A stretch of 64,000 bases of DNA from Thermococcus sp. EP1 (GTDB lineage: Archaea > Methanobacteriota_B > Thermococci > Thermococcales > Thermococcaceae): assembly GCF_001317345.1 (NCBI RefSeq), contig NZ_JXCG01000001.1, forward strand, positions 248,001 to 312,000. Direction: 5' to 3'. A model generated the notes under the pieces. That model saw only the letters and a program-made list of their open reading frames with translations. It searched no databases and had not been told where the DNA came from. Position 1 is the stretch's first letter. Every line of letters starts with the position of its first letter. The translations under genes and the position numbers were made by a program. Positions 15,277-34,824 of this stretch are shown piece after piece.

Positions 15277-15385
15277 CCAATTATTTTTAATTCTTTCTAA
15301 CTTAAATTGATTTTCTACTCTTAATAACTGTCCAATACTTATTCGGCAAAATCAAAGGTTAGAAGTTTCTTAGCTAATTTCAAAA

Positions 15386-15397
15386 GATTTATAAGAG
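15386..15397 (+). promoter_or_regulatory. TATA-box promoter of a probably leaderless GT2 gene
   Basis: GATTTATAAGAG is centred about 26 bases before the ATG at 15418. An archaeal TATA box sets initiation at about that distance, which would put the transcript start at the start codon. No ribosome binding site precedes the ATG, which agrees. Confidence 0.5.
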
Positions 15398-15417
15398 ATT
15401 GTAGTAAACTTACATGC

Positions 15418-16467: not shown

Positions 16468-16952
16468 TGATTCTAGATACACTAAGGGTCGATTACTCAA
16501 GGAGATTAAGTAAAATACTTATAAGGATTACAGATTTGTTGAATATAAAAATGTTATTGCTCCAGCATTATGAACTCATTGTGCCACTTCACATATCAAT
16601 TATTACTGAGAGGTATCCATTAATACACAAAGTTCATGAAATCTTGAATTTAATTATTCTACCTTCTACAGAATCTTGATGTAGTAGAAGTTAAGCCTAA
16701 AGTTAATAACCATTGGAAAAGGAATACAAGAGACAATTAAAACGTCTTGAAAAGAAATTTGCTGATCCAAAAGACAGGTTGGATGCTACAAATATCTTTA
16801 AAACAGTATTCTTTTATTAACAAGTTATCATAGCCAACTCCTGGGCAAATATTGTAAAAGAACCATACAACATTTCTTATGATGAGTTGTTGAAATTCAC
16901 CTTCTTCATGCGCCACCCAATAATAAAAAAGTAATTTCCAAAAAATAAAACT
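16468..16952 (+). pseudogene. decayed gene remnant(s) of unknown family
   Basis: No intact gene, but coding-like pieces interrupted by stops and frameshifts. One frame reads NDSRYTKGRLLKEIK then stop, followed by YKDYRFVEYKNVIAPAL then stop (about 16466-16565). Another frame from about 16714 reads a charged stretch ending DATNIFKTVFFY, stop, then VIIANSWANIVKEP and on to FFMRHPIIKK with a stop near 16934. A 70-residue open frame over 16467-16679 overlaps these and looks accidental. The original family is not recognised; a lost glycan-modifying enzyme is a guess from position. Confidence 0.45.
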
Positions 16953-18482
16953 CTAAACAAACTTCTTCAACACTTTTTTTATCACTCTAAAATCAACCCC
17001 CCACTTTTTCTCTATTGCTAGCAAGAGTTCCACGTCTTCCCTATCTATACTCCTACTCAGGAGTATTAGGAGAAAGTAGAGACTCAAGAACACAAGTAAA
17101 AGCAGAATTGCGTGCCAGATGTTTGATACTGCTAAACAAAAGACTTTAAGCAATCCTAACATAACAAAGCTAATAACCAAAGACTTTACATAGTTTCGGC
17201 TGAATGGATGAATTTTCGTCTTTTTGTAAAGCCAGTAAGACCTGAAGACGTTAGCCACAAAATAAGAAAAAGTCGTGGCGAAAGCAGCGCCTTCAAGTCC
17301 ATAAAATGGGATAAGAATTGCGTTTAAAATCACGTTCAAAACCGCTGCAAAAAAATCCCCAATCAAATTCAAATTCGACTCACCAATAACAATCAAACTT
17401 CCCCAATTCAAACCTAAGAAAGCATGAACCATGAATCCAAGAGCTAAAATTTGCAGAGTTTTGCTTGCTTCTAGGTAGTTTGCCCCGAAGAAGAATTTAA
17501 TCATTGCCTCAGGAAAGACAAAGATAAGAACAAACAACGGCAACGTTAATAAAAACACCCACTTCGTTAAAATCTGATAAGTTCTCCTAAGTTCTCCGAC
17601 TTTTCCTTGGGCATAAAGAGAAGTGGCTATGGGCGGGTAAAGCACTACAACCGATTTGAGAAAAATCGGGAGAAGTCTCGCAATGGGAGAGGCCGAGTTG
17701 TAGACCCCAACGATCTCTGAGCCCAAATAGTAGCCCAACATTAAAGTATCAGTCCATGTCATCAAGAACCCTAAAATTCCCGTGATCATAAGGGGAAGAG
17801 AGAAACTGACAACTTCCTTCCCAAGTTTCAAGTCAAAGGAAACATCGAACTTAAAGAGACACATCCTCCAAACGTCAATAACAAGTGCTACCAGTGTAAA
17901 AGCCTGAGCAATAACATAAGCAAAGAACACAAAGGCAAAAGAAAAGTCTAAAAAGGTCCCAAATAAAACGAGAACCAAGAAGGTCGTTGGATAAACGATG
18001 TTCTTGAAATAAACCCGCTCTCTGACCCTTCCAAAGCCCCTTGAAATGGAAGTTATTGTCCCAGTTAGAGCTGAAAACGGCAACGCAAAAGCTATTATTT
18101 TCAAAACGTAGCTTAATTCCCTTTCATTAAAAATTTGAGCAATACCCCCAGCTCCAAGGATTAAAATTACCATCCAAAGTATGCTATTCACCACTACAAT
18201 TATCAACGCTACTGAAATTAAATCTGGAACCTTTGAAGGCTCTTTCTCATTGTAAAAAGCAATCTCCCTTGGCAATGAATTTTGAAAGCCAAGCATAACG
18301 ATCACAAGAGTAATACTCAAGACAGTTAAAGCCAAATTAAAAACACCATACTCTGCAGTAGAAAAATACCTCGCTATGATAGCCCTACTCAAGAATTGGA
18401 AGAGCATAGAAATCACAGTCCCAACAAAAACAATCCCCGTCCCTTTTGCAATCTTCTGCAATGCTTGACTTGCATCACTCAT
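16953..18482 (-). CDS. polysaccharide flippase (Wzx/MOP superfamily), copy 1
   Basis: A 509-residue integral membrane protein with about 14 predicted segments, typical of oligosaccharide-lipid flippases that move lipid-linked glycans across the membrane. The start is set at MSDASQALQKIAKGTG because AAAGGTGAT sits just before this ATG; an upstream extension of 52 residues is open but charged and has no ribosome site. It is clearly paralogous to the flippase at 47496 (shared G-T-G-I-x-F, S-R-A-x-I-A-R-Y-F, I-S-x-S-R-G-F-G-R-V-R-E, W-T-D-T-L-M-L-G-Y-Y). It converges with the plus-strand glycan genes. Confidence 0.9.
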   Translation of the reverse strand: MSDASQALQKIAKGTGIVFVGTVISMLFQFLSRAIIARYFSTAEYGVFNLALTVLSITLVIVMLGFQNSLPREIAFYNEKEPSKVPDLISVALIIVVVNSILWMVILILGAGGIAQIFNERELSYVLKIIAFALPFSALTGTITSISRGFGRVRERVYFKNIVYPTTFLVLVLFGTFLDFSFAFVFFAYVIAQAFTLVALVIDVWRMCLFKFDVSFDLKLGKEVVSFSLPLMITGILGFLMTWTDTLMLGYYLGSEIVGVYNSASPIARLLPIFLKSVVVLYPPIATSLYAQGKVGELRRTYQILTKWVFLLTLPLFVLIFVFPEAMIKFFFGANYLEASKTLQILALGFMVHAFLGLNWGSLIVIGESNLNLIGDFFAAVLNVILNAILIPFYGLEGAAFATTFSYFVANVFRSYWLYKKTKIHPFSRNYVKSLVISFVMLGLLKVFCLAVSNIWHAILLLLVFLSLYFLLILLSRSIDREDVELLLAIEKKWGVDFRVIKKVLKKFV

Positions 18483-18795
18483 ATTATCACCTTTTATTAA
18501 TCCAATCTCAGTATTTGATGTACAAAGTAACCATTCTTTTGCTTTCAATCTTTTAGAATTGCGCTTAGTATTTTTAATTCTTTTCACTGTTTCATTAGAG
18601 AGTTCGTTCTTCAAAGAGAAAGTATTAGTGAAATACAAAAGAGCAAATTAAGAAGAAACCTTCATAATCGTGATAATCTCGTCAATAAAATCTCTAAAGC
18701 CCATCTCCACCAAGCGCTTCTCGAACTTAACATTCACGTGAATAGGAACTTTAAACGTGTTGTTAAGATTCAAAAAATAAAAATAAACCAAAAAT
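18483..18795 (-). other. region between the flippase and the repeat protein, holding a decayed fragment
   Basis: No intact gene. The part next to the flippase (18491-18638) is open in the flippase frame but lacks coding character. The remainder contains the C-terminal remnant described separately at 18648-18770. Confidence 0.5.
18648..18770 (-). pseudogene. C-terminal fragment of a second copy of the VP-repeat membrane protein
   Basis: The minus strand reads LNNTFKVPIHVNVKFEKRL then VEMGFRDFIDEIITIMKVSS and a stop. This aligns with the end of the intact neighbour (E-T-F-K-V-P-I-H-M-E-V-K-I-E-K-T-L-A-E-L-G ... I-I-D-E-I-V-T-I-L-K-G). The fragment has no start codon and begins 26 bases beyond the neighbour's stop, so it is best read as the tail of a tandem duplicate whose front has been lost. 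Confidence 0.75.
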
Positions 18796-19443
18796 CTACC
18801 CTCCAAGCGCAACCTTAATTCCCTTCAAGATAGTAACTATCTCATCGATTATCTCTCCCAATCCAAGCTCGGCTAAAGTCTTCTCGATTTTAACCTCCAT
18901 GTGAATCGGCACCTTGAAGGTCTCTTCAAAAGGCACAACCACCGTTTCATTTACCGGGACTTCAACGGTCATGTTCAACGGAACTTTCACTGGGAAAGTA
19001 TCTTTAAAGTGAACTTTAACCGTTGTATCAATGGGAACGTCAACATATGTATCCAACGGAACGATAATCTCCTTCTGCTCACCATTTATATCAACAGTAG
19101 TCGTTATGTTTTGAGCAACTCTAGCCCTTGCAACCAGCTTAACCGGAACAGTAACGTAAGTATCTATGGGCACCTCGGTCTCAATCTCCTTATTAATGGG
19201 CACATCCATAACCATAACAATCGGAACCTCTATTTGCTTGCTTATCGGCACCTCAACCTCCTGATCTATGGGATACTCAAAGGTTATCTTCTGGTCTTTC
19301 ATGCCCTCCACTACATCAACGACACTGTCGATTTCCGTTACAGCGATGTTCCTCACCTGAAAGAGCGCATAGAGTAAAACTCCGTTAAGCAAAATTGAGA
19401 TGGTCACCAGGACAAGCAAAACATAGCTCAACTTGGACGCCAT
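18796..19443 (-). CDS. membrane-anchored beta-repeat protein rich in V-P-I/V-P-V motifs
   Basis: A 215-residue protein with one N-terminal membrane segment (about residues 6-30) and an outside domain built from some 14 short strands each containing V-P-I, V-P-V, V-P-L or V-P-F at intervals of roughly 8-14 residues, often preceded by an acidic residue. The periodic pattern predicts an elongated beta structure. The last 40 residues switch to an amphipathic helix (AELGLGEIIDEIVTILKGIK). GGTGGTGG precedes the ATG. I recognise no named family; a surface or cell-envelope role is inferred. Confidence 0.65.
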   Translation of the reverse strand: MASKLSYVLLVLVTISILLNGVLLYALFQVRNIAVTEIDSVVDVVEGMKDQKITFEYPIDQEVEVPISKQIEVPIVMVMDVPINKEIETEVPIDTYVTVPVKLVARARVAQNITTTVDINGEQKEIIVPLDTYVDVPIDTTVKVHFKDTFPVKVPLNMTVEVPVNETVVVPFEETFKVPIHMEVKIEKTLAELGLGEIIDEIVTILKGIKVALGG

Positions 19444-19585
19444 AGGCCACCACCAAAAATTAGTAAGGCGTTTTGAGATTATAAAAGTTAGGACACTCAG
19501 AATTGACTAAATTCTGAACGGCTGGACACTTGTTGCCTTGAAGTATTCTAATCACGATTAGTCGAAACTTGTTTATATTTCTCTT

Positions 19586-19612
19586 CTAAAAACCTCACCC
19601 TAAAGGGTGAGG
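19586..19612 (-). terminator. hairpin plus T-run after the EIIB gene (or an IS200/IS605 end scar)
   Basis: A perfect 8-bp stem (CCTCACCC/GGGTGAGG, loop TAAA) spans 19593-19612. Read on the minus strand it is followed by TTTTTAG, like an intrinsic terminator just beyond the EIIB stop. Read on the plus strand, the hairpin followed by AAGATATCAG resembles IS200/IS605-type right ends, so a transposon scar reused as terminator is possible. Confidence 0.5.
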
Positions 19613-19618
19613 AAGATA

Positions 19619-19936
19619 TCAGTCAATTTCAATTATTCCTCTCTTAGACAAAGCCTCAAGGAGCTTCTCTTTTATCTCATTCTTGTCCACTAGGTTCTTG
19701 AGTCCTATTATTATTTTTGTCGAGTCCTTAAATTCTTCCTCGTGAATTATTGAAGCTATTATAATATCCGCATCACTAGATTTTGCAGTTAGAAGTTCTG
19801 TATGCTCCACCTTTGCTGGAATATTTAATTCCTTCAAAACATCCTCAACAAACATTCTCATTATCAGAGAGCTACCCTGGCCTACTCCACATACCGTTAG
19901 TATTTTAAGAGGTCTGTCCAGCTTATATTTCACCAT
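19619..19936 (-). CDS. PTS EIIB component, ascorbate (SgaB/UlaB) type
   Basis: A 105-residue soluble EIIB. The phosphorylation loop L-T-V-C-G-V-G-Q-G-S-S-L-I-M-R-M carries Cys16 at the usual position, matching the UlaB/SgaB pattern C-G-x-G-x-G-S-S. It takes phosphate from EIIA and passes it to the sugar carried by EIIC. The ATG is placed at 19936 with a GGGGGGCGGA site before it. It follows the EIIC gene by 66 bases on the same strand and is the end of that transcript. Confidence 0.85.
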   Translation of the reverse strand: MVKYKLDRPLKILTVCGVGQGSSLIMRMFVEDVLKELNIPAKVEHTELLTAKSSDADIIIASIIHEEEFKDSTKIIIGLKNLVDKNEIKEKLLEALSKRGIIEID

Positions 19937-20002
19937 TATTCCGCCCCCCACTATTATAATTTAAAAAAGTTTAAAGAAATTAAAAAGTATTTGGTAACAA
20001 AA

Positions 20003-21295
20003 CTAAAATATTGCCGCCAATATTCCTTTAAGTATTCCAACTATTGCGTACCAATCTGGATCTCCAAGTGTAGCAAGTTCTGTACCGTATGTTAGGAACT
20101 GTAAAGTTACAGCTTGGCCTATTGCTAAGATAAGTCCGTTAAGTGCTCCAGCAAACACTGCTCCTTTCCATCCGCCAGTTTTGTTACCGAAAACTGCCGC
20201 TGCACCTCCAGGGAAGAACAACATGATCATTGGAGGAACTATGACGGCAAACCCTATAGCTATAAAGAGTCCCATCATCACTAGGAATACACCTAAACCG
20301 CTGAGGAATCCTATTATAACTGCAGTGGGTGCATATGGGAAGACTACCGGTGCATCTACAGCGGGAATGGCTCCGGGTATTACCTTCTCTGAAATACCCT
20401 TAAATGCTGGCACTATTTCTCCAACGAACATCTTAACACCAGTGAGCAACACTACTATTGCTGCTGCAAAGTATACACCTCTGAGAACTGCCCAAATGAT
20501 TGGATTTAAGTCTCCAGCTAAATTGGCTACTGTCTCGGGGGCCTTTACGTATCCCATTATTGCCGCCACTACCATTATGAGACCTAAGATAACTGCAGTG
20601 CTTACAGCATAATCTTTTAAGAATGAAAGAGATTTTGGAAGCTTTATTTCCTCAGTGCTCTCCTCAGGTTTTCCAATGTATTTTCCTACATGGTAGCTTA
20701 TCAACGCTACTAACGAGGAGGTATGTGCATATCCAATTGCATCAGATCCAATAACGTCTCTCATTGCGTGGTGGATATATGCAGGTTGAATCGTCCAGTA
20801 GATGGCCATAACTATTGCTCCAATTCCGATAATTTCTCTTGCACTAGCATTTGGATTCATAGTCAAAATCACAGCAACAACCAGTAATGAGACCCACCAC
20901 ATTAGGTGTCCTGTTAAATATACATGGCGGAACCTTGGAATAATTCTAACGAGTATCAAATGCAAGATAAAAGCTACTGTCATGATAACTGCGGCATAAC
21001 TACCATATTGAGCTATTAAATCGTTTAAAGGAACATAATTTGGAGGATATTTTGGAGAAACTCCAGTTGCTGCGGTTATTAATGATTGAAAGTTCACTAG
21101 TTCATCTACAAAAAGTCCTGCACCAGCGAGCATCATGACGACACCAATCATGACCTTCGCAGTCCCTATCAAAGTTTCACTGAATGGTTTTTTCTGGAGA
21201 ATTAGTCCGACAAATGCAACAATTCCAAGGAGTACTGCTGGTTGTCCGAGTATATTAGTACCAACCCAAGTCAGAAAATCCATAAAGGCAACCAT
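20003..21295 (-). CDS. PTS EIIC permease, ascorbate (SgaT/UlaA) family
   Basis: A 430-residue polytopic permease with about 11 hydrophobic segments. It has the SgaT-like stretch A-P-V-V-F-P-Y-A-P-T-A-V-I-I-G-F and the conserved W-x-I-Q-P-A-Y / H-A-M-R-D-V-I-G-S-D-A-I-G-Y-A-H-T region. It imports the sugar while it is phosphorylated by EIIB. The ATG at 21295 is chosen because GGTGAT precedes it by four bases. It is divergent from the Cdc6-like gene and shares a 395-base control region with it. SgaT-family members transport ascorbate in bacteria, but the downstream NagA and SIS genes point to an amino sugar here. Confidence 0.85.
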   Translation of the reverse strand: MVAFMDFLTWVGTNILGQPAVLLGIVAFVGLILQKKPFSETLIGTAKVMIGVVMMLAGAGLFVDELVNFQSLITAATGVSPKYPPNYVPLNDLIAQYGSYAAVIMTVAFILHLILVRIIPRFRHVYLTGHLMWWVSLLVVAVILTMNPNASAREIIGIGAIVMAIYWTIQPAYIHHAMRDVIGSDAIGYAHTSSLVALISYHVGKYIGKPEESTEEIKLPKSLSFLKDYAVSTAVILGLIMVVAAIMGYVKAPETVANLAGDLNPIIWAVLRGVYFAAAIVVLLTGVKMFVGEIVPAFKGISEKVIPGAIPAVDAPVVFPYAPTAVIIGFLSGLGVFLVMMGLFIAIGFAVIVPPMIMLFFPGGAAAVFGNKTGGWKGAVFAGALNGLILAIGQAVTLQFLTYGTELATLGDPDWYAIVGILKGILAAIF

Positions 21296-21330
21296 GGGAA
21301 TCACCAAAATTCTATAAATAGGCCAATATT

Positions 21331-21349
21331 TATATATTTTTTGGTTATT
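21331..21349 (-). promoter_or_regulatory. EIIC-EIIB promoter core shared with the HPr operon
   Basis: The minus strand reads AATAACCAAAAAATATATA, a BRE-plus-TATA-like element about 35-55 bases before the EIIC start. The identical 19 bases occur on the plus strand at 25921-25939 before HPr. Confidence 0.6.
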
Positions 21350-21380
21350 CTGGTTATCTGCTACCGTTATTCGCGTTATC
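21344..21380. repeat. two 15-base direct repeats upstream of the EIIC TATA box
   Basis: GTTATTCTGGTTATC (21344-21358) and GTTATTCGCGTTATC (21366-21380) differ at two central bases and start 22 bases apart, two turns of the helix. Each repeat itself contains GTTAT twice at a 9-base step. The placement just upstream of the TATA box suits an activator. Confidence 0.6.
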
Positions 21381-21421
21381 GAGCCATGAAATCCATGTTT
21401 TTGCCAATATGGGAGAGGACG

Positions 21422-21433
21422 TTATCATTTGTA
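21422..21433 (-). promoter_or_regulatory. candidate PTS operator, inverted copy
   Basis: TTATCATTTGTA is the exact reverse complement of the 12-base string TACAAATGATAA found at 21527 and 25837. A related TTATCACATTT follows at 21440. Confidence 0.5.
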
Positions 21434-21526
21434 ATTTTGTTATCACATTTCAAAGAAGAATTACTTGTTGGTTATATTGGAGAAAATGACCCTAAACGGC
21501 TCTTTGTTTATTTTATAGTAGAGTAA

Positions 21527-21538
21527 TACAAATGATAA
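21527..21538 (+). promoter_or_regulatory. candidate PTS operator TACAAATGATAA
   Basis: This exact 12-base copy lies 164 bases before the Cdc6-like start, in the region divergent to EIIC. The motif recurs in the other PTS control region at 25837. Confidence 0.5.
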
Positions 21539-21655
21539 ATAAGTCTGTAATGATGTAATATGTAATATTTTGTGGGCCAAAATCTCATCATTTCTCAAGC
21601 TCTATTAACAAAATCTACAATTTTTGCAAAGTATATCATGGCAATGTTTAAATAA

Positions 21656-21679
21656 TACATATGATAAACACCATATGTA
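21656..21679. promoter_or_regulatory. perfect dyad overlapping the leader of the Cdc6-like gene
   Basis: TACATATG, eight bases, then CATATGTA. The left arm runs into GATAA, giving TACATATGATAA, one base different from the operator motif. It ends 11 bases before the start codon, a position suited to repression or autoregulation. Confidence 0.55.
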
Positions 21680-21690
21680 AGGTGGTTATA

Positions 21691-22959
21691 ATGAATACGT
21701 CTCTGAATCTTAAGGAGATACTTCGTGAAGAAATGCAAAAAAAGACTATTCTTGTCAATCCATCAGTTCTTAATGAAAGCTATCTTCCTGAATACCTCCT
21801 ATTTAGAGATGAAGAGATTACACAAATAACTAAACACCTTGGGAGATTTTTAAGTGGATTACATCCCGGAAACCTATTAATTCACGGGCCCCCGGGAACG
21901 GGAAAGACCCACGCAATAAAGCTAGTAGCAAAAAACTACAATGAGTTTACAAGTGAGAATGCGATCAATTCTAAAATGATCTATATTAACTGTAAGGATA
22001 AAACATATTACCAGACAATCGTGGCCCTGTTACATGAGTTAGGAGTGAATTTTCCAAATAGGGGATTTGGAGTTGCTGAAGCAGTAGACGCGTTAACAAA
22101 ACACTTGAAAATGGATGAGCAAAGATATATCTTTGTTTTTGATGAGATAGACAAATTAAAGAGAACGTACAAAGATAAAGAAGACCCTATGAACGCGTTA
22201 GTATATAGAATGTCGCGATTGGATGAGTTGGTGGATAAGGATGCCCCTGTTATAATAATGATATCAAATATGAGCAATATAGTCGAAAAAATAGAGCACG
22301 CAACAATGGCTAAATTCACCCCCAAACCAATATACTTTAGAGAGTACAACACTGAGGAGCTTTACCAAATTCTTCTTGACAGGGCAAAGTATGCATTGGA
22401 CCCTTCTAGTTTCAGCAATGAATCCATAAGATACTTAGCAGAACTTATACAAAAAAATGAGAGAGATTTAAGATGGGGCTTTAGAGTACTCGTAGAGGCC
22501 GCGTTAATGGCTAAGGAGAAGATTACAAAAGGACTGATAGAAGAAGCAGTCAAAATCGTGGATAATGACATCCTCCTCCAAGTGATTCAATCCCTCAGTA
22601 ATCATCAACTGGTGGTACTATGGTCAATCTCATTCTTAGAAACTTCAAATATCCTCCCAGTCACAGGAGAGCTTTATCAAATCTACAAACTTGTTTGTGA
22701 AGAATTGAGATGGAGACCAAGGAGCATGAGACATGTGATGCACTACATAACTCCTAAAATAGAAAGTATTGGCCTAATAACCTCCAGAGAAAAAGGCATG
22801 GGCAGAGGAAGGGGGAAAACTTTGGTATTCCATATAGAGGAAAACCCACATAAGATACTAAAAATCGTTGAAGAGGTTTTGTCTGAAAGAATACACAAGG
22901 AATTTAAGCCTAGTGAAATTCCTGAACTTCTTCAAGTAAGTTTTCAAAGGAGAGGGTGA
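21691..22959 (+). CDS. Orc1/Cdc6-like AAA+ ATPase, candidate regulator of the PTS locus
   Basis: A 422-residue AAA+ protein with the Orc1/Cdc6 layout: an N-terminal Y-L-P-E-Y-L-L-F-R-D-E-E-I lead-in, Walker A G-P-P-G-T-G-K-T (66-73), Walker B V-F-D-E-I-D-K (about 149-155), sensor 1 M-I-S-N-M-S, a helical lid, and a C-terminal winged-helix-like domain with R-P-R-S-M-R-H-V and a basic G-M-G-R-G-R-G-K wing. ATG 21691 follows AGGTGG. It heads an operon with EIIA and EI, with six bases to EIIA. No origin-type repeats are seen next to it, so a DNA-binding regulatory role is more likely than replication initiation. Confidence 0.7.
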   Translation: MNTSLNLKEILREEMQKKTILVNPSVLNESYLPEYLLFRDEEITQITKHLGRFLSGLHPGNLLIHGPPGTGKTHAIKLVAKNYNEFTSENAINSKMIYINCKDKTYYQTIVALLHELGVNFPNRGFGVAEAVDALTKHLKMDEQRYIFVFDEIDKLKRTYKDKEDPMNALVYRMSRLDELVDKDAPVIIMISNMSNIVEKIEHATMAKFTPKPIYFREYNTEELYQILLDRAKYALDPSSFSNESIRYLAELIQKNERDLRWGFRVLVEAALMAKEKITKGLIEEAVKIVDNDILLQVIQSLSNHQLVVLWSISFLETSNILPVTGELYQIYKLVCEELRWRPRSMRHVMHYITPKIESIGLITSREKGMGRGRGKTLVFHIEENPHKILKIVEEVLSERIHKEFKPSEIPELLQVSFQRRG

Positions 22960-22965
22960 AATACA

Positions 22966-23445
22966 ATGAATATAATCAAGAAACTTATAGAAAATATGGA
23001 TACTAATGCAATTGCTGTTAATCTAGAAGCTGAAAATTGGGTTGAGGCCGTAAAAATCGCTGGAGAGATTTTGTACAACCTAGGAAAAGTTTCACAAGAA
23101 TACATCGAAGGAATGATAAAAACTACAAAACGTCTTGGCCCTTATGCTGTTATTGCTCCTGGCATTGCTCTGCCTCACGCTCGGCCAGAAAATGGAGCTC
23201 TTGACCTTGGAATGAGCATTGTGGTACTTCGTACTCCCATAGATTTTGATTCTCCCAATGATCCGGTAAAAGTCATAATAGCATTCTCAGCTCCTACAAA
23301 ATCAGAACATCTTGAGTTATTAAAGGAAGTTGGGATGCTCTTGTCCGATACAACCCTCCAAAAGAAGCTGAGACACACAAAGACTTCAAATGACGTGATT
23401 GCTGCATTTAGGGAGGCCATAAGCAATTACGAGGTGAGAAAATGA
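22966..23445 (+). CDS. PTS EIIA component (fructose/mannitol/ascorbate class), copy 1
   Basis: A 159-residue PTS_EIIA type-2 domain. The phosphorylated histidine lies in A-P-G-I-A-L-P-H-A-R-P-E-N-G (His71), the canonical site. It relays phosphate from HPr to EIIB. AGGGTGA precedes the ATG. Its stop overlaps the EI start by four bases, so the two are translationally coupled. It is paralogous to the gene at 25142, with which it shares R/K-L-G-P-Y-A-V-I-A-P-G-I-A-L-P-H-A-R-P. Confidence 0.9.
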   Translation: MNIIKKLIENMDTNAIAVNLEAENWVEAVKIAGEILYNLGKVSQEYIEGMIKTTKRLGPYAVIAPGIALPHARPENGALDLGMSIVVLRTPIDFDSPNDPVKVIIAFSAPTKSEHLELLKEVGMLLSDTTLQKKLRHTKTSNDVIAAFREAISNYEVRK

Positions 23446-25124
23446 GGCAGATTATTAAAGGAATACCCGTATCAGGAGGTATAGGTATTGGAGAGGCCAT
23501 TATTATACAACCAACGGCCCAAATAACTACAGATATTACCGGAGAAGACGCTAAAAGAGCAATTCTAAATGCACGAGAAAACACCATAAAAATGCTTGAT
23601 GAGTTTATAAAAAGTGAAACTCCTGAAGTAGCAGGCATTCTAAAGGCGCATAAACTTATGGTGGAGGCAATTGTTAATGAAGCTCTTGAAGAAGTCAAAA
23701 AAGGACAAGGAGCAATAGCAGCTATAAACTCAGTGGTAGATAAATATGTAAAGCTTTTGAAGGACTCTGGTTCTTCTCTAATTCAACTTAGAGTTGATGA
23801 CTTAATAGACATAAAAAATGTTCTAATAGAAAATCTAACACGGAAAAAGGTAACTCACATTAAAAAAGAGTCAATAGCAGTTCTAAAAGATATTCACCCC
23901 TCTCAGCTATTAAGGTATAAACGACAGGGGATTGCGGGGATAGTCTCTGAAAGAGGTAGTTATACGTCTCACGTTGCTATAATTGCCAGAAATCTTGGTA
24001 TCCCCGCTGTTTTTGGAGTTAAAAATGCAACAGAAACACTAAGAAACGGAGATCTCATCATAGTTGATGGATTTTCAGGAGAAGTCCTTGTTAATCCTGA
24101 CAAAAGTACAGTTGAATCATATAAGGCAAAAAAGAAAACTTTCACAAAATTCGCCCAATTGTTCGAAAAGACAAAGAATGAACCTGCAATAACATTAGAT
24201 GGGCATAGAGTTTTAGTTACTGCAAATATAGGGAACGAAGATGACCTCAATACCGCCCTAATAAACGGATGCGATGGGGTTGGATTGTTTAGGACTGAAT
24301 TTTATTACCTCTCACGCCAAACACTCCCCTCCTCGGAGGAGTTCTCTAGGATAATAAAAAAATTAGCAAATAAACTTGAAGAAAAACCACTAACAATTAG
24401 GCTTCTTGATGTTGGTGGGGACAAACCACTACCCTATCTGCCATCTCCAAAAGAAAATAACTCATTTTTGGGCCTTAGAGGAATAAGATATCTCTTCAAA
24501 TACCGTGAACTGTTAAAATCTCAACTGCAGGCAATTATCACAGCATCAAAGCAAGGCAACCTTAGGATCATGGCACCCATGGTAAGCACAATAGAGGAGA
24601 TTAGGGAATTAAAAGAAGAAATTAAAAAAATATCCCCAGAAGCAGAAAAGAATCTAAAATTTGGAATAATGGTGGAAGTGCCATCCATACTCTTCATGTT
24701 AGACAATATAATTGGAGAAGTTGACTTCTTGAGTATAGGCACCAACGACTTAACTCAATATCTTTTTGCCGTGGACAGGACGAGCGAAGAGGTCTCCCAC
24801 CTATATGACGATATGCATCCCGCGGTGTTAAGAGCAATTAATGAGATTACAAAGCATGCACACAAAAAAGAAATAACTATTGATGTGTGTGGAGAACTTG
24901 CAAGTAATCCAATAGCTGTTCCAATACTTGTAGGACTTGGCATAAACGAACTGAGCGTCTCCCCAACATCTATTCCCCTTGTTAAGTGGATAATACAGAA
25001 CATCTCATACGAAGATTCCAAGAGGTTTGTAAGAAAAGTACTCGCCCTGGAAAATGGCCAAGAAGTAAGAGAAGAGGCCAGAAAATTCCTGCAGGGATAT
25101 CTTGGGAAAGATATTCCATGGTAA
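23442..25124 (+). CDS. ptsI: PTS enzyme I (phosphoenolpyruvate-protein phosphotransferase)
   Basis: Autophosphorylates with phosphoenolpyruvate and passes phosphate to HPr. The 560-residue length is full. The N-terminal domain has G-I-P-V-S-G-G-I-G-I-G, the active site reads R-G-S-Y-T-S-H-V-A-I-I-A-R (His177), and the PEP-binding barrel shows G-L-F-R-T-E-F, L-D-V-G-G-D-K, M-A-P-M-V-S, G-T-N-D-L-T-Q-Y and the general-acid Cys in D-V-C-G-E-L-A-S (about 483). These features separate it from the archaeal PEP synthase, which lacks the HPr-binding helical insert. GAGGTGAG precedes the ATG. Confidence 0.92.
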   Translation: MRQIIKGIPVSGGIGIGEAIIIQPTAQITTDITGEDAKRAILNARENTIKMLDEFIKSETPEVAGILKAHKLMVEAIVNEALEEVKKGQGAIAAINSVVDKYVKLLKDSGSSLIQLRVDDLIDIKNVLIENLTRKKVTHIKKESIAVLKDIHPSQLLRYKRQGIAGIVSERGSYTSHVAIIARNLGIPAVFGVKNATETLRNGDLIIVDGFSGEVLVNPDKSTVESYKAKKKTFTKFAQLFEKTKNEPAITLDGHRVLVTANIGNEDDLNTALINGCDGVGLFRTEFYYLSRQTLPSSEEFSRIIKKLANKLEEKPLTIRLLDVGGDKPLPYLPSPKENNSFLGLRGIRYLFKYRELLKSQLQAIITASKQGNLRIMAPMVSTIEEIRELKEEIKKISPEAEKNLKFGIMVEVPSILFMLDNIIGEVDFLSIGTNDLTQYLFAVDRTSEEVSHLYDDMHPAVLRAINEITKHAHKKEITIDVCGELASNPIAVPILVGLGINELSVSPTSIPLVKWIIQNISYEDSKRFVRKVLALENGQEVREEARKFLQGYLGKDIPW

Positions 25125-25141
25125 GCTCAGTTCTGGAATTT

Positions 25142-25606
25142 TTAATTTCTTTCCTCACTTCTTTCAGATTTAAATGATTCAATAATCTCAACTACCTCTT
25201 GCGGGGTTTTTGCATTTGCTAATTTGCCTCTAATCTCTTCATCAGAAAGTAATTTTGCCAATTCTTGGAGTAATTGCACATGAGACGTCTTATCTGGTGC
25301 CGAGAATGCTATTACAACTTTTACCGGATCATTGGGAGAGCCAAAGTTTATCGGGTTGTTAAGCACGACAATGCTTATACCGACTTTGAGAGCGCCATCT
25401 TCTGGACGAGCATGCGGAAGAGCAATACCTGGAGCGATAACAGCATAAGGGCCCAATTTCTTGATTGTTTCTATCATCCCCAAAATATAATCCTTTGTTA
25501 TTTTTCCATTTTTGTATAGAATTTCCCCAGCAACCTTAACGCTCTCTTCCCATGTTGCTACTTCAACATTGGTCTTAATGTCTTCTAAGCAGATGGTCTC
25601 TATCAT
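25142..25606 (-). CDS. PTS EIIA component, copy 2
   Basis: A 154-residue type-2 EIIA with the active site A-P-G-I-A-L-P-H-A-R-P-E-D-G (His65). GGTGATAAA precedes the ATG at 25606. It is convergent with EI (17 bases between stops) and divergent from HPr. Two EIIA genes for one EIIB/EIIC pair are unusual; the second may serve another permease elsewhere or act as a regulator. Confidence 0.9.
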   Translation of the reverse strand: MIETICLEDIKTNVEVATWEESVKVAGEILYKNGKITKDYILGMIETIKKLGPYAVIAPGIALPHARPEDGALKVGISIVVLNNPINFGSPNDPVKVVIAFSAPDKTSHVQLLQELAKLLSDEEIRGKLANAKTPQEVVEIIESFKSERSEERN

Positions 25607-25836
25607 GTTTTATCACCAAACATGAATTGTTGATTAAAGTATTTTAATATTTACTCTATATCACTTATCTTTAGTATTATATGCATGTTTCTTTACAATA
25701 TGTGACAAATCCAAATTATTTCCAGTAATACTTATCGGCTATATTACCACCAAAAATAGTGTTATACCTTCAGTGAGAGGCCTGCCCTTATACAAAGCCC
25801 CTACTAGGACCCATGAGACCTTGTTCATGAAAGTAT

Positions 25837-25848
25837 TACAAATGATAA
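25837..25848 (+). promoter_or_regulatory. candidate PTS operator TACAAATGATAA
   Basis: Exact copy of the 12-base string seen at 21527 (and inverted at 21422). The next base makes GATAAC, the complement of the GTTATC hexamers near EIIC. Confidence 0.5.
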
Positions 25849-25920
25849 CCATCTCCCCCTATTCAATGAAAAAACTGAATTCTTGTCAGTTTACCCCAAA
25901 TAAACCAATGAAAACCCTCA

Positions 25921-25939
25921 AATAACCAAAAAATATATA
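25921..25939 (+). promoter_or_regulatory. HPr operon promoter core
   Basis: AATAACCAAAAAATATATA, identical to the EIIC promoter core on the opposite strand at 21331-21349. The TATA part would place the transcript start near 25960, giving a leader of about 55 bases before HPr. Confidence 0.6.
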
Positions 25940-26017
25940 TAGAACTCTCTTAAATTAACTATTGAGAGAAAGCTTGCAAGATGAATTTCATAATCACTCA
26001 AAATAAAGGTGATGATC

Positions 26018-26290
26018 ATGATTGAAGTAACGGTTAAATTGAAAAACAAATCTGGACTCCATGCAAGACCTGCAGCCATCTTTGTAGAAACAGCAAAAAA
26101 ATTCAAATCAAAAATAACCGTCTCAAAAGAGAAGAATATTGCAGATGCAAAGAATATTCTCCAACTTCTGACCCTAGGTATTGATTATGGAGACGAAATT
26201 AAAATTATTGTCGAAGGGGAAGATGAGAAAAATGCAATAAATGAACTGATACACTTAATAGAGGATATCCTCCCTTCTGAGGATGTATAA
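26018..26290 (+). CDS. ptsH: HPr phosphocarrier protein
   Basis: A 90-residue HPr that carries phosphate from EI to the EIIA proteins. The active site K-S-G-L-H-A-R-P-A places the phosphohistidine at residue 15, exactly as in bacterial HPr. Position 46, a regulatory serine in Firmicutes HPr, is Asn here (A-D-A-K-N-I-L-Q-L), so HPr kinase control is not expected. ATG 26018 follows AAAGGTGAT by five bases. It heads the operon running through both SIS genes and NagA. Confidence 0.93.
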   Translation: MIEVTVKLKNKSGLHARPAAIFVETAKKFKSKITVSKEKNIADAKNILQLLTLGIDYGDEIKIIVEGEDEKNAINELIHLIEDILPSEDV

Positions 26291-26329
26291 TCAACGTATC
26301 TTGAGAATTTCACGCGAAAGGGTGATCTT

Positions 26330-28009
26330 ATGATAGGAACAATCCTATTAATACTCAATTATCCTCAAAATGATATATTAAAGATCCTAGATAAGACCGT
26401 AAATTTACTAAAACCAGGTTTTGAAGTCATTGTGTGGTCTTCTTCCTCAATAAAAAGATACCAAATTGACAATCAACATTACAAAAGATCGATTATAGAC
26501 AACAACGTGAAAGGAGTTTTGATTAACACCAATAAATACGAAACTGGCATGCAATCCAATTTTATCTTTCATGAGAATACACAAAGAGACATTATAGTAT
26601 CACTTGAAGGCCCTTTAGGTGAAGATTTTGGGGTCTTTTTAGATAAAATACAAAATGTATGCCACACTGATCCTCCACCACGAGAATTAAGCATAGATTC
26701 CAAAAATCATTGCCTCTCATTTGTTTGTTATGAGCATGATCCAAAAAAAGCAAAAGTTGCGTCATTTTCCTCGTATAGGCCCTTGTTTATGTCTCAAAAC
26801 CAAGATAAAATTCTTCTAACAACCTCTCCTGAAATAGTCTCCGCTTTAGGAATTGAGGCTTACGAAATACCCCCTAATTCTTTAGTATTTTGGCCATCTA
26901 ATAAACAATCACTCCCAGAAAGTGCAACAAAAAGGAGAATTCATGCATCAAAACACTTTATGAAAAATGAGATACATGAAACTCCTTACACTTTAAAAAG
27001 AGTTTATGCTTTTAGAAATCACAAAACAATTAAAACTGCCGCGGAGATCATTACAAATTCCAAGCGAATATACGTAATTGGAAATGGATCTTCCTTAAAT
27101 GCAGGTCTAGGGCTGCAATACCTCCTTCCGGAGTTAGATATATCAGGAATCTCCGCATTTGAATTTTTACTGTATCAACTTCCTTCACTCGAAAAGGGCC
27201 ATACAATTATTGCAATAACCCAATCAGGAAGTACTTGGGATGTTATTGAAGCAGTGGAAAAAGGGAAAAAAGCAGGGGCAAATATAATATCTATTACAAA
27301 TAATCCCCTTGGTAAAATAAGGGAGTATTCAGACGTAACTATCCCAATATTGGCAGGATACGAACTCGCAATCCCAGCAACAAAGAGCTTCACCAATACT
27401 CTGGCGATTCTACATCTATTGGCCTCACAAGTAAAGGCAGAGCTTGGAATATTAACCACAAAAGAGAGGGAGGAGAAGTTATTAGCCATCTCGACCTTTG
27501 CAGATAAGGTACCTAATCTACTCCATCACCATGAGAAATGGGCCCAGAATACAGCCAAAGAGTTGTGCGATCTCAAGGGTGGATATATAATTTCGGCCGG
27601 GATCACGTACCCGGTAGCTATAGAAGGAGCACTTAAGCTGAAAGAAGTAGCTTATTCGCATGCAGAACCTATCGAACTCGAGGAATATCTCCATGGACCA
27701 AGTGCTGCTCTTTCTAAAGAGATGTATAACATTGTGATATCTCCCTACGAAAGGGCTGGAAGAGAACGTTTCCTTCAACAACTTGAAAAATTCCACAACA
27801 ATATTGGCAAGTTTGTTGTTATAGGTGGAACTTCTGAGGAGTATGAAAAACTAGAAAACATATCCATAGCAGAAATAAAGCAAAAAGACCCAATACTTTA
27901 CGCCCTGACATCAACCCTACTCATTCAACTTCTATCGTATTGGCTTGGAATATATAGAAAGACGCCTATAGATTTTCCAAAAGGCTTATCCAAAGCTGTT
28001 GTGGAATAA
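26330..28009 (+). CDS. GlmS-like tandem SIS protein with a degenerate glutaminase domain
   Basis: A 559-residue protein with GlmS architecture. Residues ~1-215 resemble the N-terminal glutaminase domain but begin M-I-G-T, without the Cys that follows Met in true glutaminases. The first SIS domain (~240-380) has I-G-N-G-S-S-L-N-A-G, I-T-Q-S-G-S-T-W-D and P-A-T-K-S-F-T-N-T; the second (~410-540) has K-E-V-A-Y-S-H-A-E-P-I-E-L-E-E-Y-L-H-G-P. Without glutaminase it is likely a glucosamine- or galactosamine-6-phosphate deaminase/isomerase acting after NagA. GGGTGATC precedes the ATG. It lies 39 bases after HPr. Confidence 0.8.
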   Translation: MIGTILLILNYPQNDILKILDKTVNLLKPGFEVIVWSSSSIKRYQIDNQHYKRSIIDNNVKGVLINTNKYETGMQSNFIFHENTQRDIIVSLEGPLGEDFGVFLDKIQNVCHTDPPPRELSIDSKNHCLSFVCYEHDPKKAKVASFSSYRPLFMSQNQDKILLTTSPEIVSALGIEAYEIPPNSLVFWPSNKQSLPESATKRRIHASKHFMKNEIHETPYTLKRVYAFRNHKTIKTAAEIITNSKRIYVIGNGSSLNAGLGLQYLLPELDISGISAFEFLLYQLPSLEKGHTIIAITQSGSTWDVIEAVEKGKKAGANIISITNNPLGKIREYSDVTIPILAGYELAIPATKSFTNTLAILHLLASQVKAELGILTTKEREEKLLAISTFADKVPNLLHHHEKWAQNTAKELCDLKGGYIISAGITYPVAIEGALKLKEVAYSHAEPIELEEYLHGPSAALSKEMYNIVISPYERAGRERFLQQLEKFHNNIGKFVVIGGTSEEYEKLENISIAEIKQKDPILYALTSTLLIQLLSYWLGIYRKTPIDFPKGLSKAVVE

Positions 28010-28027
28010 TAATTGGGGGGGTATAAA

Positions 28028-28765
28028 TTGGAAATTTTGGACGAAGCCTATTCGATTGTTAATTCTCTGTTAAAAAAAGTAAAAGAAGAAGAGAGAGAAA
28101 ATATTGAAAAAGCCGCTCAAGTATTAGCTGAATCTTTAGAAAAAGGAGGAATCCTACACGTAATTGGAGCAGGCCACTCAGCAATAATCGGGGAAGAGCT
28201 TTCTTATAGGGCTGGAGGTCTCGTTCCCGTAAACCCGATAATGAACACAGATATAAACGTTTATCATGGGGCTTTGAAATCGACAGAAATGGAACACGTA
28301 GAGGGATATGCGGAAATAGTCTTAAGAGCAATGGGAGTACAAAAAGGGGATACTGTGTTAGTTGTATCCAGCTCGGGGGTTAATGTGTTCCCAGTTGAAG
28401 CTGCTATGAAGGCCAAATCTCTTGGATGTTCTGTTATCGCCATAACCTCTGTTGAATACTCCAAGAGCTTAACGCCAAAGAACAAGTACAACAAGAGACT
28501 TTTCGAAGTTGCGGACATAGTTATAGACAACAAAGTGCCCAGAGGAGATGCCGCATTAGAGATTTCGGGATTTGAAATGAAAATTTTCCCAGTATCCACT
28601 ATTATCGTGGCATTTATAGCTCAAACAATCGTTGCTTTGGCAATTAAAAAGCTGGTCGAAAAAGGAGTTGAACCTCCAGTATTCCTAAGCGCTCACTTAC
28701 CAGGAGCCCGAGAACACAATGTTAAAGTTATTGAAAGATATAAGGCCCGCTTAAAATACTTGTAA
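28028..28765 (+). CDS. SIS-domain sugar isomerase-like protein (UPF0309 type)
   Basis: A 245-residue single SIS-domain protein. It has G-G-I-L-H-V-I-G-A-G-H-S-A-I-I-G-E-E-L-S-Y-R-A-G-G, H-G-A-L-K-S-T-E and V-S-S-S-G-V-N, matching UPF0309 proteins that sit in bacterial amino-sugar operons. The substrate is presumably a phosphorylated amino sugar, but this is inferred. The TTG at 28028 is preferred over the TTG at 28013 because GGGGGG sits about seven bases before it. It is followed by NagA after 12 bases. Confidence 0.75.
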   Translation: MEILDEAYSIVNSLLKKVKEEERENIEKAAQVLAESLEKGGILHVIGAGHSAIIGEELSYRAGGLVPVNPIMNTDINVYHGALKSTEMEHVEGYAEIVLRAMGVQKGDTVLVVSSSGVNVFPVEAAMKAKSLGCSVIAITSVEYSKSLTPKNKYNKRLFEVADIVIDNKVPRGDAALEISGFEMKIFPVSTIIVAFIAQTIVALAIKKLVEKGVEPPVFLSAHLPGAREHNVKVIERYKARLKYL

Positions 28766-28777
28766 GGAGATGAAACA

Positions 28778-29950
28778 ATGTCAAGAGCAGTTTTAACCAA
28801 CGCTCGAGTGATTACCCCTTTTGAGGAAATTTACCCGGGGACCGTTGAAATTGAAAATGGAATAATAAAAAGGGTTTATGCGGGAAGAAATCCAAGTGGT
28901 GAAGACCTGGAGGGCAAAATAATCGTTCCAGGGTTCATTGATGTACACACCCACGGAATAGGGGGATTTGACGTTACCTACAGTGCTATGAGTGGCTCAG
29001 AGCAGGAAGTTGAAGAAGCCCTGATCAAGATGAGCGAGAAATATTTAATGCATGGAGTAACTCTTTTTCTCCCTACTACTGTGACTGCACCTCATGAGGT
29101 TCTTTTAATTGCAGCTAAGGGAGTAAAAAATGTAATTAATTATCAAAAGGATCAGCTCGCAGGAGCAAAGATTGGAGGACTCCACTTAGAAGGGCCTTAT
29201 ATAAACAAGGAAAAGAAAGGGGCCCAAAATCCAGAGTTTATACGTCTTCCTAACATTCAAGAACTTAAAGAATACTGGGAAGCTTCTGAAGGCAACATAA
29301 AAACCGTAACTATTGCTCCAGAAGTTGAGGGAGCACTGGAGTTCATACAGTACGCAAGGAGTCTTGGGATATACGTCTCATTAGGGCACACAAATGCAAC
29401 TTACAAAGAAGCAAAAGCTGCTATATATGCTGGAGCTAATAGAGCAAGCCATTTATACAATGCTATGAGGCCCATTAACCACAGAGAGCCAGGGGTTATT
29501 ATTGCCACTATCGAAAGTCCACAAGTTTATCTAGAACTCATATGTGACCTTATCCACATCTCTCCCAGAATTATCCACTTCACTTTGAAACATGCAGGAG
29601 TAGAGAGAATCGTTACAATTACAGATTCAATAATCGCAACAGACTTTCCAGATGGAAAATACTCCCTAGGAGGGTTAGAGGTAATTGTCAAAGATGGAGT
29701 CTGCAGACTAAAAGATGGAACTCTCGCAGGCAGCACTCTCACTATGGATAAAGCATTAAAGAATCTTGTTGAAATTGGAGTTCCTCTAAAGGACGCGATT
29801 AGAACTATGACATATAACCCCGCGAAAGCTTTAGGAATTCACAAAGCTGGGGCAATATTGCCCGGGTATTTGGCAGATTTAGTGATTCTAGACAGAGATC
29901 TACATATAGATTCAGTATACATACACGGAGAAAAAATACTAACTCCATAA
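28778..29950 (+). CDS. nagA: N-acetylglucosamine-6-phosphate deacetylase
   Basis: Hydrolyses the acetyl group of GlcNAc-6-phosphate (or GalNAc-6-phosphate) in the cytoplasm. Amidohydrolase motifs are present: P-G-F-I-D-V-H-T-H-G (His57, His59), H-L-E-G-P-Y-I-N, L-G-H-T-N-A, A-S-H-L-Y-N-A-M-R-P and V-T-I-T-D-S-I with the catalytic Asp. Length 390 is normal. GGAGATG precedes the ATG. As the last gene of the HPr operon it is the strongest clue that the PTS imports an N-acetyl amino sugar. Confidence 0.9.
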   Translation: MSRAVLTNARVITPFEEIYPGTVEIENGIIKRVYAGRNPSGEDLEGKIIVPGFIDVHTHGIGGFDVTYSAMSGSEQEVEEALIKMSEKYLMHGVTLFLPTTVTAPHEVLLIAAKGVKNVINYQKDQLAGAKIGGLHLEGPYINKEKKGAQNPEFIRLPNIQELKEYWEASEGNIKTVTIAPEVEGALEFIQYARSLGIYVSLGHTNATYKEAKAAIYAGANRASHLYNAMRPINHREPGVIIATIESPQVYLELICDLIHISPRIIHFTLKHAGVERIVTITDSIIATDFPDGKYSLGGLEVIVKDGVCRLKDGTLAGSTLTMDKALKNLVEIGVPLKDAIRTMTYNPAKALGIHKAGAILPGYLADLVILDRDLHIDSVYIHGEKILTP

Positions 29951-30008
29951 CCTATTTCCACAAAGCCCTGAAAGTAATATCTTCAATATACACCACGAAT
30001 CACTAAAA

Positions 30009-30743
30009 TCATCTCCCAATAAGCACCAAAACTCCGATAAGGAGTATTGTAATGTTTATCATCTTTTTCAGCCTCTCTTTATCGACTTTTGTGTTAATAT
30101 GGGTCCCCAAATAGACACCTGGAAGTGTTCCAAGGGCTAAAAAGAGAGCTATATAGTAATCCACTCTACCAAGGAGAGCATAATTCAGGAAACTGAAAGA
30201 AGACAAAGCCAACCCGTAAACTATCGTGACACCAACAACTTCCCTTGGGTTAACTCTAGCAAGGTTCATTAAGGCAAAGCTCACAATTACTCCAGCACCA
30301 ACGGAAGTGAACTGAACAGTTAAACCCACAACAAAACCCAGAAGATATAGATACTCTCTTCTCGGCCTTATTGGGACTTTAATTTCCCCCCTAATCAGGC
30401 TCAATGTAGATGTAATTAAGAGCACACTGCCCAAGAGGAGGGTGAGATACTCGTTCAAAACCGTCCTGTCAATTTCTCTCAAGAGGAAGTTTCCCAGTAC
30501 TATGGCTGGCAAACTTCCGATAAAGAGCCTTAAGGCCAGATCAAACCTTAATTCATTATTCTTATGATGGAAAAAGACACCAAAAATCCTTGTGACAGTT
30601 GCATAGAGCAAATCTGTGCCGATGGCTACAACTGGCTCTACCCCAAAGAAAATCAAAGCTGGGGTCATCAAAGCCCCACCGCCTATTCCGGTGAGGCCAA
30701 CTAGAGTTCCCACAAGAAAGCCAAGAAAAGTAAAGATAAGCAT
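30009..30743 (-). CDS. TSUP (TauE/SafE) family permease, possible sulfate or sulfite transporter
   Basis: A 244-residue membrane protein with two homologous halves of about four segments each. The first half carries G-L-T-G-I-G-G-G-A-L-M-T-P and the second V-G-L-T-V-Q-F-T-S-V-G-A-G-V-I-V-S, the usual TSUP signatures. Members move sulfite, sulfoacetate or other organosulfur anions. As the last gene of a sulfate-activation operon it probably brings in an oxidised sulfur anion. GGTGACT precedes the ATG, nine bases after the APS kinase stop. Confidence 0.8.
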   Translation of the reverse strand: MLIFTFLGFLVGTLVGLTGIGGGALMTPALIFFGVEPVVAIGTDLLYATVTRIFGVFFHHKNNELRFDLALRLFIGSLPAIVLGNFLLREIDRTVLNEYLTLLLGSVLLITSTLSLIRGEIKVPIRPRREYLYLLGFVVGLTVQFTSVGAGVIVSFALMNLARVNPREVVGVTIVYGLALSSFSFLNYALLGRVDYYIALFLALGTLPGVYLGTHINTKVDKERLKKMINITILLIGVLVLIGR

Positions 30744-30752
30744 AGAGTCACC

Positions 30753-31301
30753 TCAGAGATAACCGAGCTCTTTGGCCTTCTTTAATACGGCCTCTACTTC
30801 TTCCTCTGGTGTCATCTTTGAAGAATCCACCCTAACCTCTGGGTTCTCCGGCTCTTCATAAACTCCATCATAGCCCGTCAACCCCTTTATTTCACCGCGC
30901 ATGGCCTTCTTGTACAATCCCTTTGGATCCCTCTGAATCCTCACTTCGAGCGGTGCATACACATAAACCTCAATGAAGTTGCCTATCTCCTTCCTTGCAT
31001 ACTCCCTAACTGCTTTGTAAGGGGAGATGAGAGAAACTATAGTTATCACTCCATTCCTGCTCAAAAGTTTGGCCATGTGGATAACTATTCTGTTATGCAT
31101 TTCCCTTGCTTCCTTGGAAAAACCGAGCTCTGGATATAGGGTCTTCCTTATCACATCACCATCCAGAATCTCCACCCTATAGCCCATTGATTTAAGCTTC
31201 TTCTTCAAAGCGTGTGCTAAAACGGTCTTTCCTGCTCCACTTGGGCCTGTAAGCCATATTGTAAATCCGTTTTCAAGGCTCTTTTGAGTTTTCTCGCTCA
31301 T
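30753..31301 (-). CDS. cysC: adenylylsulfate (APS) kinase
   Basis: Phosphorylates APS at the 3' hydroxyl to give PAPS, the sulfate donor. The P-loop G-P-S-G-A-G-K-T is at residues 19-26, followed by L-D-G-D-V-I-R, the lid region with K-A-M-R-G-E-I-K-G-L-T-G-Y, and V-S-L-I-S-P-Y. Length 182 is that of a stand-alone APS kinase. The ATG overlaps the upstream stop (ATGA) with GGAGGAG before it. PAPS made here would serve the sulfotransferase at 14233. Confidence 0.9.
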   Translation of the reverse strand: MSEKTQKSLENGFTIWLTGPSGAGKTVLAHALKKKLKSMGYRVEILDGDVIRKTLYPELGFSKEAREMHNRIVIHMAKLLSRNGVITIVSLISPYKAVREYARKEIGNFIEVYVYAPLEVRIQRDPKGLYKKAMRGEIKGLTGYDGVYEEPENPEVRVDSSKMTPEEEVEAVLKKAKELGYL

Positions 31302-32713: not shown

Positions 32714-32718
32714 ATTGA

Positions 32719-33651: not shown

Positions 33652-33656
33652 GGAAA

Positions 33657-34796: not shown

Positions 34797-34824
34797 TGCT
34801 ATCACCTAAAAAAGTTTTAGAGAA

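Follow-up and report, generated by a model that had tools for sequence, protein, structure and literature searches.

The window analyzed here, a 64,000-nucleotide stretch of the Thermococcus sp. EP1 genome, carries between positions 19619 and 29950 a locus which we interpret, with a probability of roughly 60%, as a self-contained phosphoenolpyruvate (PEP)-dependent phosphotransferase system (PTS) through which an N-acetylated hexosamine, with N-acetylglucosamine (GlcNAc) as the likeliest candidate, is taken up and broken down, under the control of an Orc1/Cdc6-like protein and with one of its EIIA proteins, EIIA1, in a reporting role. The genes are arranged in the order EIIB and EIIC (minus strand); orc1-like, EIIA1, and EI (plus strand); EIIA2 (minus strand); and HPr, a GlmS-like SIS protein, a NagS-like SIS protein, and NagA (plus strand). 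A sequence-only reading of the same DNA had recognized the PTS proteins, NagA, and the two SIS proteins, all of which were recovered by family profile matches, and had predicted an N-acetyl amino sugar from the neighboring genes, a prediction supported by NagA, the GlmS-like SIS protein, and an exchange of the permease between related loci. It had passed over the orc1-like gene, which together with its associated DNA boxes is the locus's most unusual feature.

The EI, HPr, EIIA, EIIB, and EIIC proteins of a PTS are all encoded, with intact phosphorylation and PEP-binding residues as judged by alignment with Klebsiella EI and HPr, UlaB, and UlaC; the sites originally named (His177, His15, His71, His65, and Cys16) were confirmed. 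EI (23442–25124, plus strand; TIGR01417, 497 bits against a cut-off of 342) was also placed by its tree, and retains H177 together with the PEP-site residues R284, R320, R346, E412, N435, D436, R446, and C483 of the Klebsiella enzyme. HPr (26009–26290, plus strand; PF00381, 8.3e-30) carries its phosphorylated histidine at position 15 when read from the ATG at 26018 (position 18 from the GTG start) and has no Ser at the Ser46 position. Two EIIA proteins match PF00359: EIIA1 (22966–23445, plus strand; 2.8e-30; H71), for which we propose a role in signaling, and EIIA2 (25142–25606, minus strand; 1.9e-34; H65), for which we propose a role in transport. In EIIB (19619–19951, minus strand; PF02302, 2.7e-13) the phospho-cysteine is residue 16 from an internal ATG (21 from the GTG) and aligns with that of UlaB, while EIIC (20003–21307, minus strand; PF03611, EIIC-GAT, 1.5e-98) is a GAT/SgaT-family permease by alignment with UlaA and by its tree. 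Phosphate would be expected to pass from PEP to EI (H177), HPr (H15), EIIA2 (H65), and EIIB (C16), and the GAT-family EIIC would release the sugar inside the cell as its 6-phosphate.

That this complete PTS belongs to a hyperthermophilic archaeon also stood up to examination. The host genome is Thermococcal (1.82 Mb in 43 contigs; 95.9% complete, 0.15% contamination), and the window lies on a contig of 483,520 bp. The single-contig genome G087, also of the Thermococcales, has an identical gene order, and the locus is therefore not a product of assembly contamination, an explanation rejected on the basis of contig context, of sister loci in other genomes, and of GC content (0.38 for the locus and 0.39 for the window). 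PTSs are described as rare in archaea, with identification and characterization there a recent matter (PMC8100219), with the haloarchaeal systems cited in that review resembling the present locus in being complete. The window HPr, however, scores below the NCBIfam cut-off for haloarchaeal HPr (72.7 against 140). The permease family and the regulator of the haloarchaeal systems differ as well from those of the window locus.

The orc1-like gene (21661–22959, plus strand) is situated between EIIC and EIIA1, 7 bp upstream of the latter, and encodes an AAA+ winged-helix protein of the Orc1/Cdc6 family (TIGR02928, 236 bits against 181; Cdc6_C PF09079; AAA PF00004) with the Walker A motif GPPGTGKT, the Walker B motif VFDEID, and the Cdc6 winged helix; homologues place its real start codon probably near 21691. 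The protein is 69–77% identical to its counterparts in three sister loci, 50% identical to the product of a gene in genome G001, 40–41% identical to a protein of the T. barophilus plasmid pTBMP1, and 37% identical to a T. profundus plasmid protein, whereas identity to the host's own other Orc1/Cdc6 protein is only 26–27%. As a separate observation, the Orc1/Cdc6-like gene of G001 precedes a phenylalanyl-tRNA synthetase gene.

A defined DNA box accompanies this gene. In the host genome and in the sister genomes G087 and G093, exact matches to the box RTTATCAYTTGTAAY are confined to the EIIC and HPr promoters of each. Upstream of EIIC, the strong box GTTATCATTTGTAAT (21421–21435, plus strand) lies 94 bp from the TATA-like element AAAATATATA of the EIIC promoter (21331–21340, minus strand) and is paired with an inverted partner, TTATCATTTGTAT (21526–21538, minus strand), at 104 bp start to start. 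The sole other exact match to the strong box in the host genome is upstream of HPr (25835–25849, minus strand), again 94 bp from a TATA-like element AAAATATATA (25930–25939, plus strand), and 104 bp start to start from a degenerate partner, TTATCGGCTATAT (25732–25744, plus strand; TTATCGG at 25732), with a similar arrangement in G087. A third box with one mismatch, TTATCATATGTAT (21655–21667, minus strand), falls in the start region of the orc1-like gene and is a possible autoregulatory site. The box sites have a purine-rich flank in common, and within each of the genomes G087 and G093 the promoter segment of EIIC is nearly the same as that of HPr. A TrmB-type motif, TATCACN5GTGATA, was considered and set aside, as it had no exact match and its count at up to three mismatches was not clearly above chance.

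When a relaxed inverted-pair pattern was searched across 94 Thermococcales genomes, it was found in only 7 places. Five belong to the four PTS loci (the divergent or permease promoter of each, plus the HPr promoter in G087); of the other two, one is on pTBMP1 close to the plasmid's Orc1/Cdc6 gene and one is a lone match in G004. The reversed control pattern gave no match over the same 94 genomes, and shuffling the 353-bp region 20,000 times with dinucleotides preserved produced no inverted pair. Start-to-start spacing of the pairs was 104 bp in the window, 118 bp in the fourth PTS locus (genome G074), and 104 bp on pTBMP1, with further values of 106 and 105 bp. In G001 the Orc1-like gene is immediately preceded by variant inverted boxes. 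The viral contigs that we searched contained neither an EIIC relative nor the box pair.

These patterns make the Orc1-like protein the best candidate to bind the boxes, as inferred from their co-occurrence, and suggest that a protein derived from a replication initiator probably serves here as the PTS regulator. Under the proposed mechanism, this relative of plasmid initiators would bind the inverted boxes, which are spaced by some 105 bp, at the promoters of EIIC/orc1 and of HPr, with one box of each pair held at a fixed distance from TATA. A competing explanation, which we consider rather unlikely, is that the locus arrived on a plasmid whose replication origin, still active or in decay, persists as the orc1-like gene and boxes and plays no part in regulation. 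The 104–106 bp inverted pair does resemble the non-coding arrangement near the pTBMP1 Orc1/Cdc6 gene, and two plasmid proteins are among the closest relatives that the Orc1-like protein has beyond the PTS loci. Against an origin speak the further strong box with its degenerate partner at the HPr promoter, a box-to-TATA distance of exactly 94 bp in the four promoters measured (EIIC and HPr of both the host and G087; 90 bp in G074), and the arrangement in G074, where the pair is at the permease promoter and the orc1-like gene is at the opposite end of the cluster, approximately 8 kb from it; no GC-skew minimum was seen at the locus either, a result which does not exclude an origin there. An operator is favored over a mere origin because the boxes recur at promoters at a fixed distance from TATA, because of the HPr copy, and because of the G074 arrangement.

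Several points nevertheless weigh against a regulatory role. The boxes and the Orc1-like protein co-occur in only six genomes, not all of them unrelated (the four PTS loci, pTBMP1, and G001). On pTBMP1 the pair may be no more than the plasmid origin, the chromosomal divergent region may itself be a retained origin, and the boxes could be the target of a regulator whose gene lies outside the locus. The pTBMP1 region (NC_015471.1) shares with the window both the box and the pair spacing beside its related protein, but it is on a plasmid, PTS genes were not seen in the 40 kb examined, and the boxes there are candidate sites. Two neighboring observations concern these relatives. The non-coding region of pTBMP1 with the inverted pair near the Orc1/Cdc6 gene (L150:4365–5174) adjoins an Eco57I-type restriction-modification gene and is a candidate plasmid origin, and G001 has a 36-nt inverted repeat with variant boxes, plus a third copy, upstream of its Orc1/Cdc6-like gene (L152:9036–9242).

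How the state of the PTS might reach the Orc1-like protein is suggested by EIIA1. This protein forms a supported clade with an EIIA of G074, a genome that retains it although it has no GAT-family EIIC, which points to a signaling role for EIIA1; encoded directly between the orc1-like gene and EI, it is the likely reporter of PTS phosphorylation state. The full proposal, that an initiator-related Orc1/Cdc6 protein was recruited together with paired origin-type boxes as a dedicated PTS regulator, to which the adjacent EIIA signals PTS phosphorylation state, is put forward tentatively, at slightly under even odds. A precedent for an Orc1 protein acting as a regulator and not as an initiator is Orc1-2 of Sulfolobus (PMC9738581), which likewise uses the Orc1/Cdc6 architecture in gene regulation but binds a short DNA-damage element (ANTTTC), in contrast to the 13–15 bp box in inverted pairs found here at a sugar locus which itself encodes the candidate regulator. 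If correct, the present case would be, as far as open-licence papers show, the second independent instance in which an Orc1/Cdc6 protein became a transcription factor, and the first to involve the import of a nutrient, and the defined box would allow its possible origin and operator forms to be compared directly.

Downstream of the phosphotransfer genes, NagA (28778–29950, plus strand) satisfies the equivalog cut-off for N-acetylglucosamine-6-phosphate deacetylase (TIGR00221, 333 bits against 225.65) and would strip acetate from the sugar 6-phosphate. The GlmS-type SIS protein (26330–28009, plus strand; 559 aa) matches GlmS through its isomerase half alone (PRK00331/TIGR01135 over residues 205–557 only; 205 against a cut-off of 381); it begins MIG, and no glutaminase domain was detected in it. 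A Desulfurococcal relative is intermediate, with a glutaminase-like domain still present and an MGG start in place of the catalytic Cys. Because the isomerase half is kept and the glutaminase half has decayed, the protein fits a glucosamine-6-phosphate deaminase, which would convert the NagA product into fructose-6-phosphate for glycolysis. The remaining SIS protein (28013–28765, plus strand; 250 aa; PRK02947, 294 bits against 135; PDB relatives 3cvj and NagS 9eol) belongs to the same family as the GlcNAc-6P dehydratase NagS and shares its catalytic residues H53, S54, R64, S91, E94, and D179 (PMC12680351). It differs in that N228 is a His in the window protein, with Gly227-Asn228 of NagS replaced by Ala-His in most Thermococcal copies. 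This enzyme may act on a related 6-phosphate, with C3 elimination or hydration as the probable reaction, and is the least certain step of the proposed pathway.

Four Thermococcal genomes (the host, G087, G093, and G074) keep the set of orc1-like, EIIA1, EI, HPr, GlmS-like, NagS-like, and NagA genes. Three of them have the GAT-family permease, and G074 has instead a mannose-family permease (EIIA-man, PTSIIB_sorb, and a fused EIICD), such that the catabolic genes are constant and the permease is exchanged. It is this swap, together with NagA and a GlmS-like SIS protein whose glutaminase half has decayed, that leads us to an N-acetylhexosamine as substrate. Two results tell against a GlcNAc pathway of this kind: more distant NagS homologues (26–36% identical to S. 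coelicolor NagS) have negligible or no activity on GlcNAc-6P (PMC12680351), and there is no extracellular glycosidase within the locus, the genome itself not having been searched for glycosidases.

Two other amino-sugar substrates were weighed, both of which we regard as quite improbable. The first is salvage of peptidoglycan sugars, in which bacterial walls would supply N-acetylmuramic acid (MurNAc), or a similar GlcNAc derivative with a 3-O substituent, for import and the NagS-related SIS protein would act as a MurQ-like etherase feeding NagA. The protein is indeed among the relatives of MurQ and NagS, with the residues essential in NagS retained, and the Desulfurococcal cluster L043 (14806–19333) has, beside PTS and NagS-like genes, an anhydro-MurNAc kinase (AnmK), a gene with a serine beta-lactamase fold, and a glycosidase of family GH84, with the same AnmK-like gene, judged by its start, in L038 (4936–9458). 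Also on the side of salvage, AnmK normally requires a downstream etherase, yet true MurQ (TIGR00274) was above the family cut-off in none of the 11 PTS genomes examined. This substrate is opposed by the absence of AnmK from all 94 Thermococcales searched, by the Ala-His of the Thermococcal SIS proteins at NagS Gly227-Asn228, and by the mannose-family permease of G074, which is not known to be linked to MurNAc. In their own right, L043 and, with it, L038 represent a possible cluster for bacterial cell-wall salvage in archaea.

The second would be a different amino sugar, such as N-acetylgalactosamine (GalNAc) or N-acetylmannosamine (ManNAc), with the NagS-related enzyme acting as an isomerase or epimerase toward GlcNAc-6P. 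In this direction point the Thermofilum-type genome G132 (L111:3833–10837), where AgaS-family and GatZ/KbaZ-like genes accompany those for NagA, a NagS-like protein, EIIA, EIIB, and a related EIIC (34%) in the manner of a GalNAc pathway; the activity of S. coelicolor NagS on ManNAc-6P; and the permease of G074, since mannose-family permeases include AgaPTS. The window locus, however, has a SIS protein of the GlmS and not the AgaS type, and tagatose pathway genes are absent from it.

The sequence-only reading had found the pairing of an ascorbate-family permease with amino-sugar genes unusual, and this part was weakened. Among the closest known systems, the L-ascorbate PTS of E. coli (UlaABC, of the GAT/AG superfamily) likewise has an EIIC-GAT domain (PF03611) and separate EIIA (PTS_EIIA_2), EIIB (PTS_IIB), and EIIC proteins, and the core residues H135, H194, and D314 of UlaA are conserved in the window EIIC as H134, H195, and D318. 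These are only three of the seven ascorbate-contact residues compared (T86, H135, Q139, H194, Q195, D314, and M410); the contacts Q139, Q195, T86, and M410 are replaced by W138, T196, N90, and D416, and the window EIIC falls in a distinct hyperthermophile clade. For this protein "ascorbate" is only a family and annotation label. Moreover, GAT-family EIIC is found near the same PRK02947/NagS-type SIS family on several bacterial plasmid records, namely those of Listeria, where the region is annotated, and, according to match tables, of Carnobacterium, Enterococcus, and Lacticaseibacillus. That EIIC carries L-ascorbate or a related sugar acid, with NagA and the SIS proteins forming a separate neighboring pathway, is suggested by the GAT family, the NCBIfam name (ascorbate IIC), and the three conserved residues, but is made highly improbable by the four replaced contacts, by the absence of all ascorbate-6-P catabolic genes (UlaG, UlaD, UlaE, and UlaF) from the locus, and by the linkage of this permease to NagA and/or NagS-like genes across several archaeal orders.

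The host was likewise said to be unusual, and this too is weakened by the distribution of the genes. The case is not unique, with EI (distinct from PEP synthase) in 11 of the 94 species and the amino-sugar cassette in three other Thermococcales besides the host, but the window EIIC itself occurs in only 3 of the 94. Three kinds of PTS are represented among the 11: the amino-sugar type; a fructose type with 1-phosphofructokinase-like and EIIBC genes (G015, G035, G077, and a second locus of G074); and dihydroxyacetone-kinase clusters (G047 and G088, with DhaK, DhaL, and EIIA-man confirmed by family search in G088), with which G064 and G083 group in the EI tree. No dedicated description of a Thermococcus PTS was found among the titles and abstracts of open-licence papers, and the same kind of search for Thermofilum returned a pipeline paper only.

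Beyond the Thermococcales, the EIIC subfamily (56–91% identity) recurs in Desulfurococcales (G250 at 75%, L038, L043, L039 with a stop codon, and a partial copy in G316), in Thermofilum NZ13, in one Baldrarchaeote among 228 genomes of its phylum, and in Thermoflexus, which holds the cassette only in part. In the Desulfurococcales, Thermofilum, and Baldrarchaeota the permease is accompanied, in the same region or genome, by PTS genes and by NagS-like, NagA, and/or GlmS-like genes. The hyperthermophile members form one supported clade in the EIIC tree, apart from the sampled bacterial plasmid members and with the Thermococcales next to G250, and in the EI tree G250 is joined with the four Thermococcales. 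A wider search and trees, as had been suggested, show the spread of the subfamily; the sample of bacteria is too small for them to give a direction of transfer. Because hyperthermophiles from several phyla carry cassettes organized around a single EIIC subfamily, the route and timing of this spread become testable.

A search for RNA families gave no match in positions 15000–35000 of the window. Among the related loci, the cluster of G074 has a ceramidase-like gene (PF04734; L045:11471–12703) between NagA and the orc1-like gene, and L048, L049, L050, L051, L052, and L053 are other Thermococcales loci, at which a PTS is either of the fructose type or linked to a dihydroxyacetone kinase cluster.

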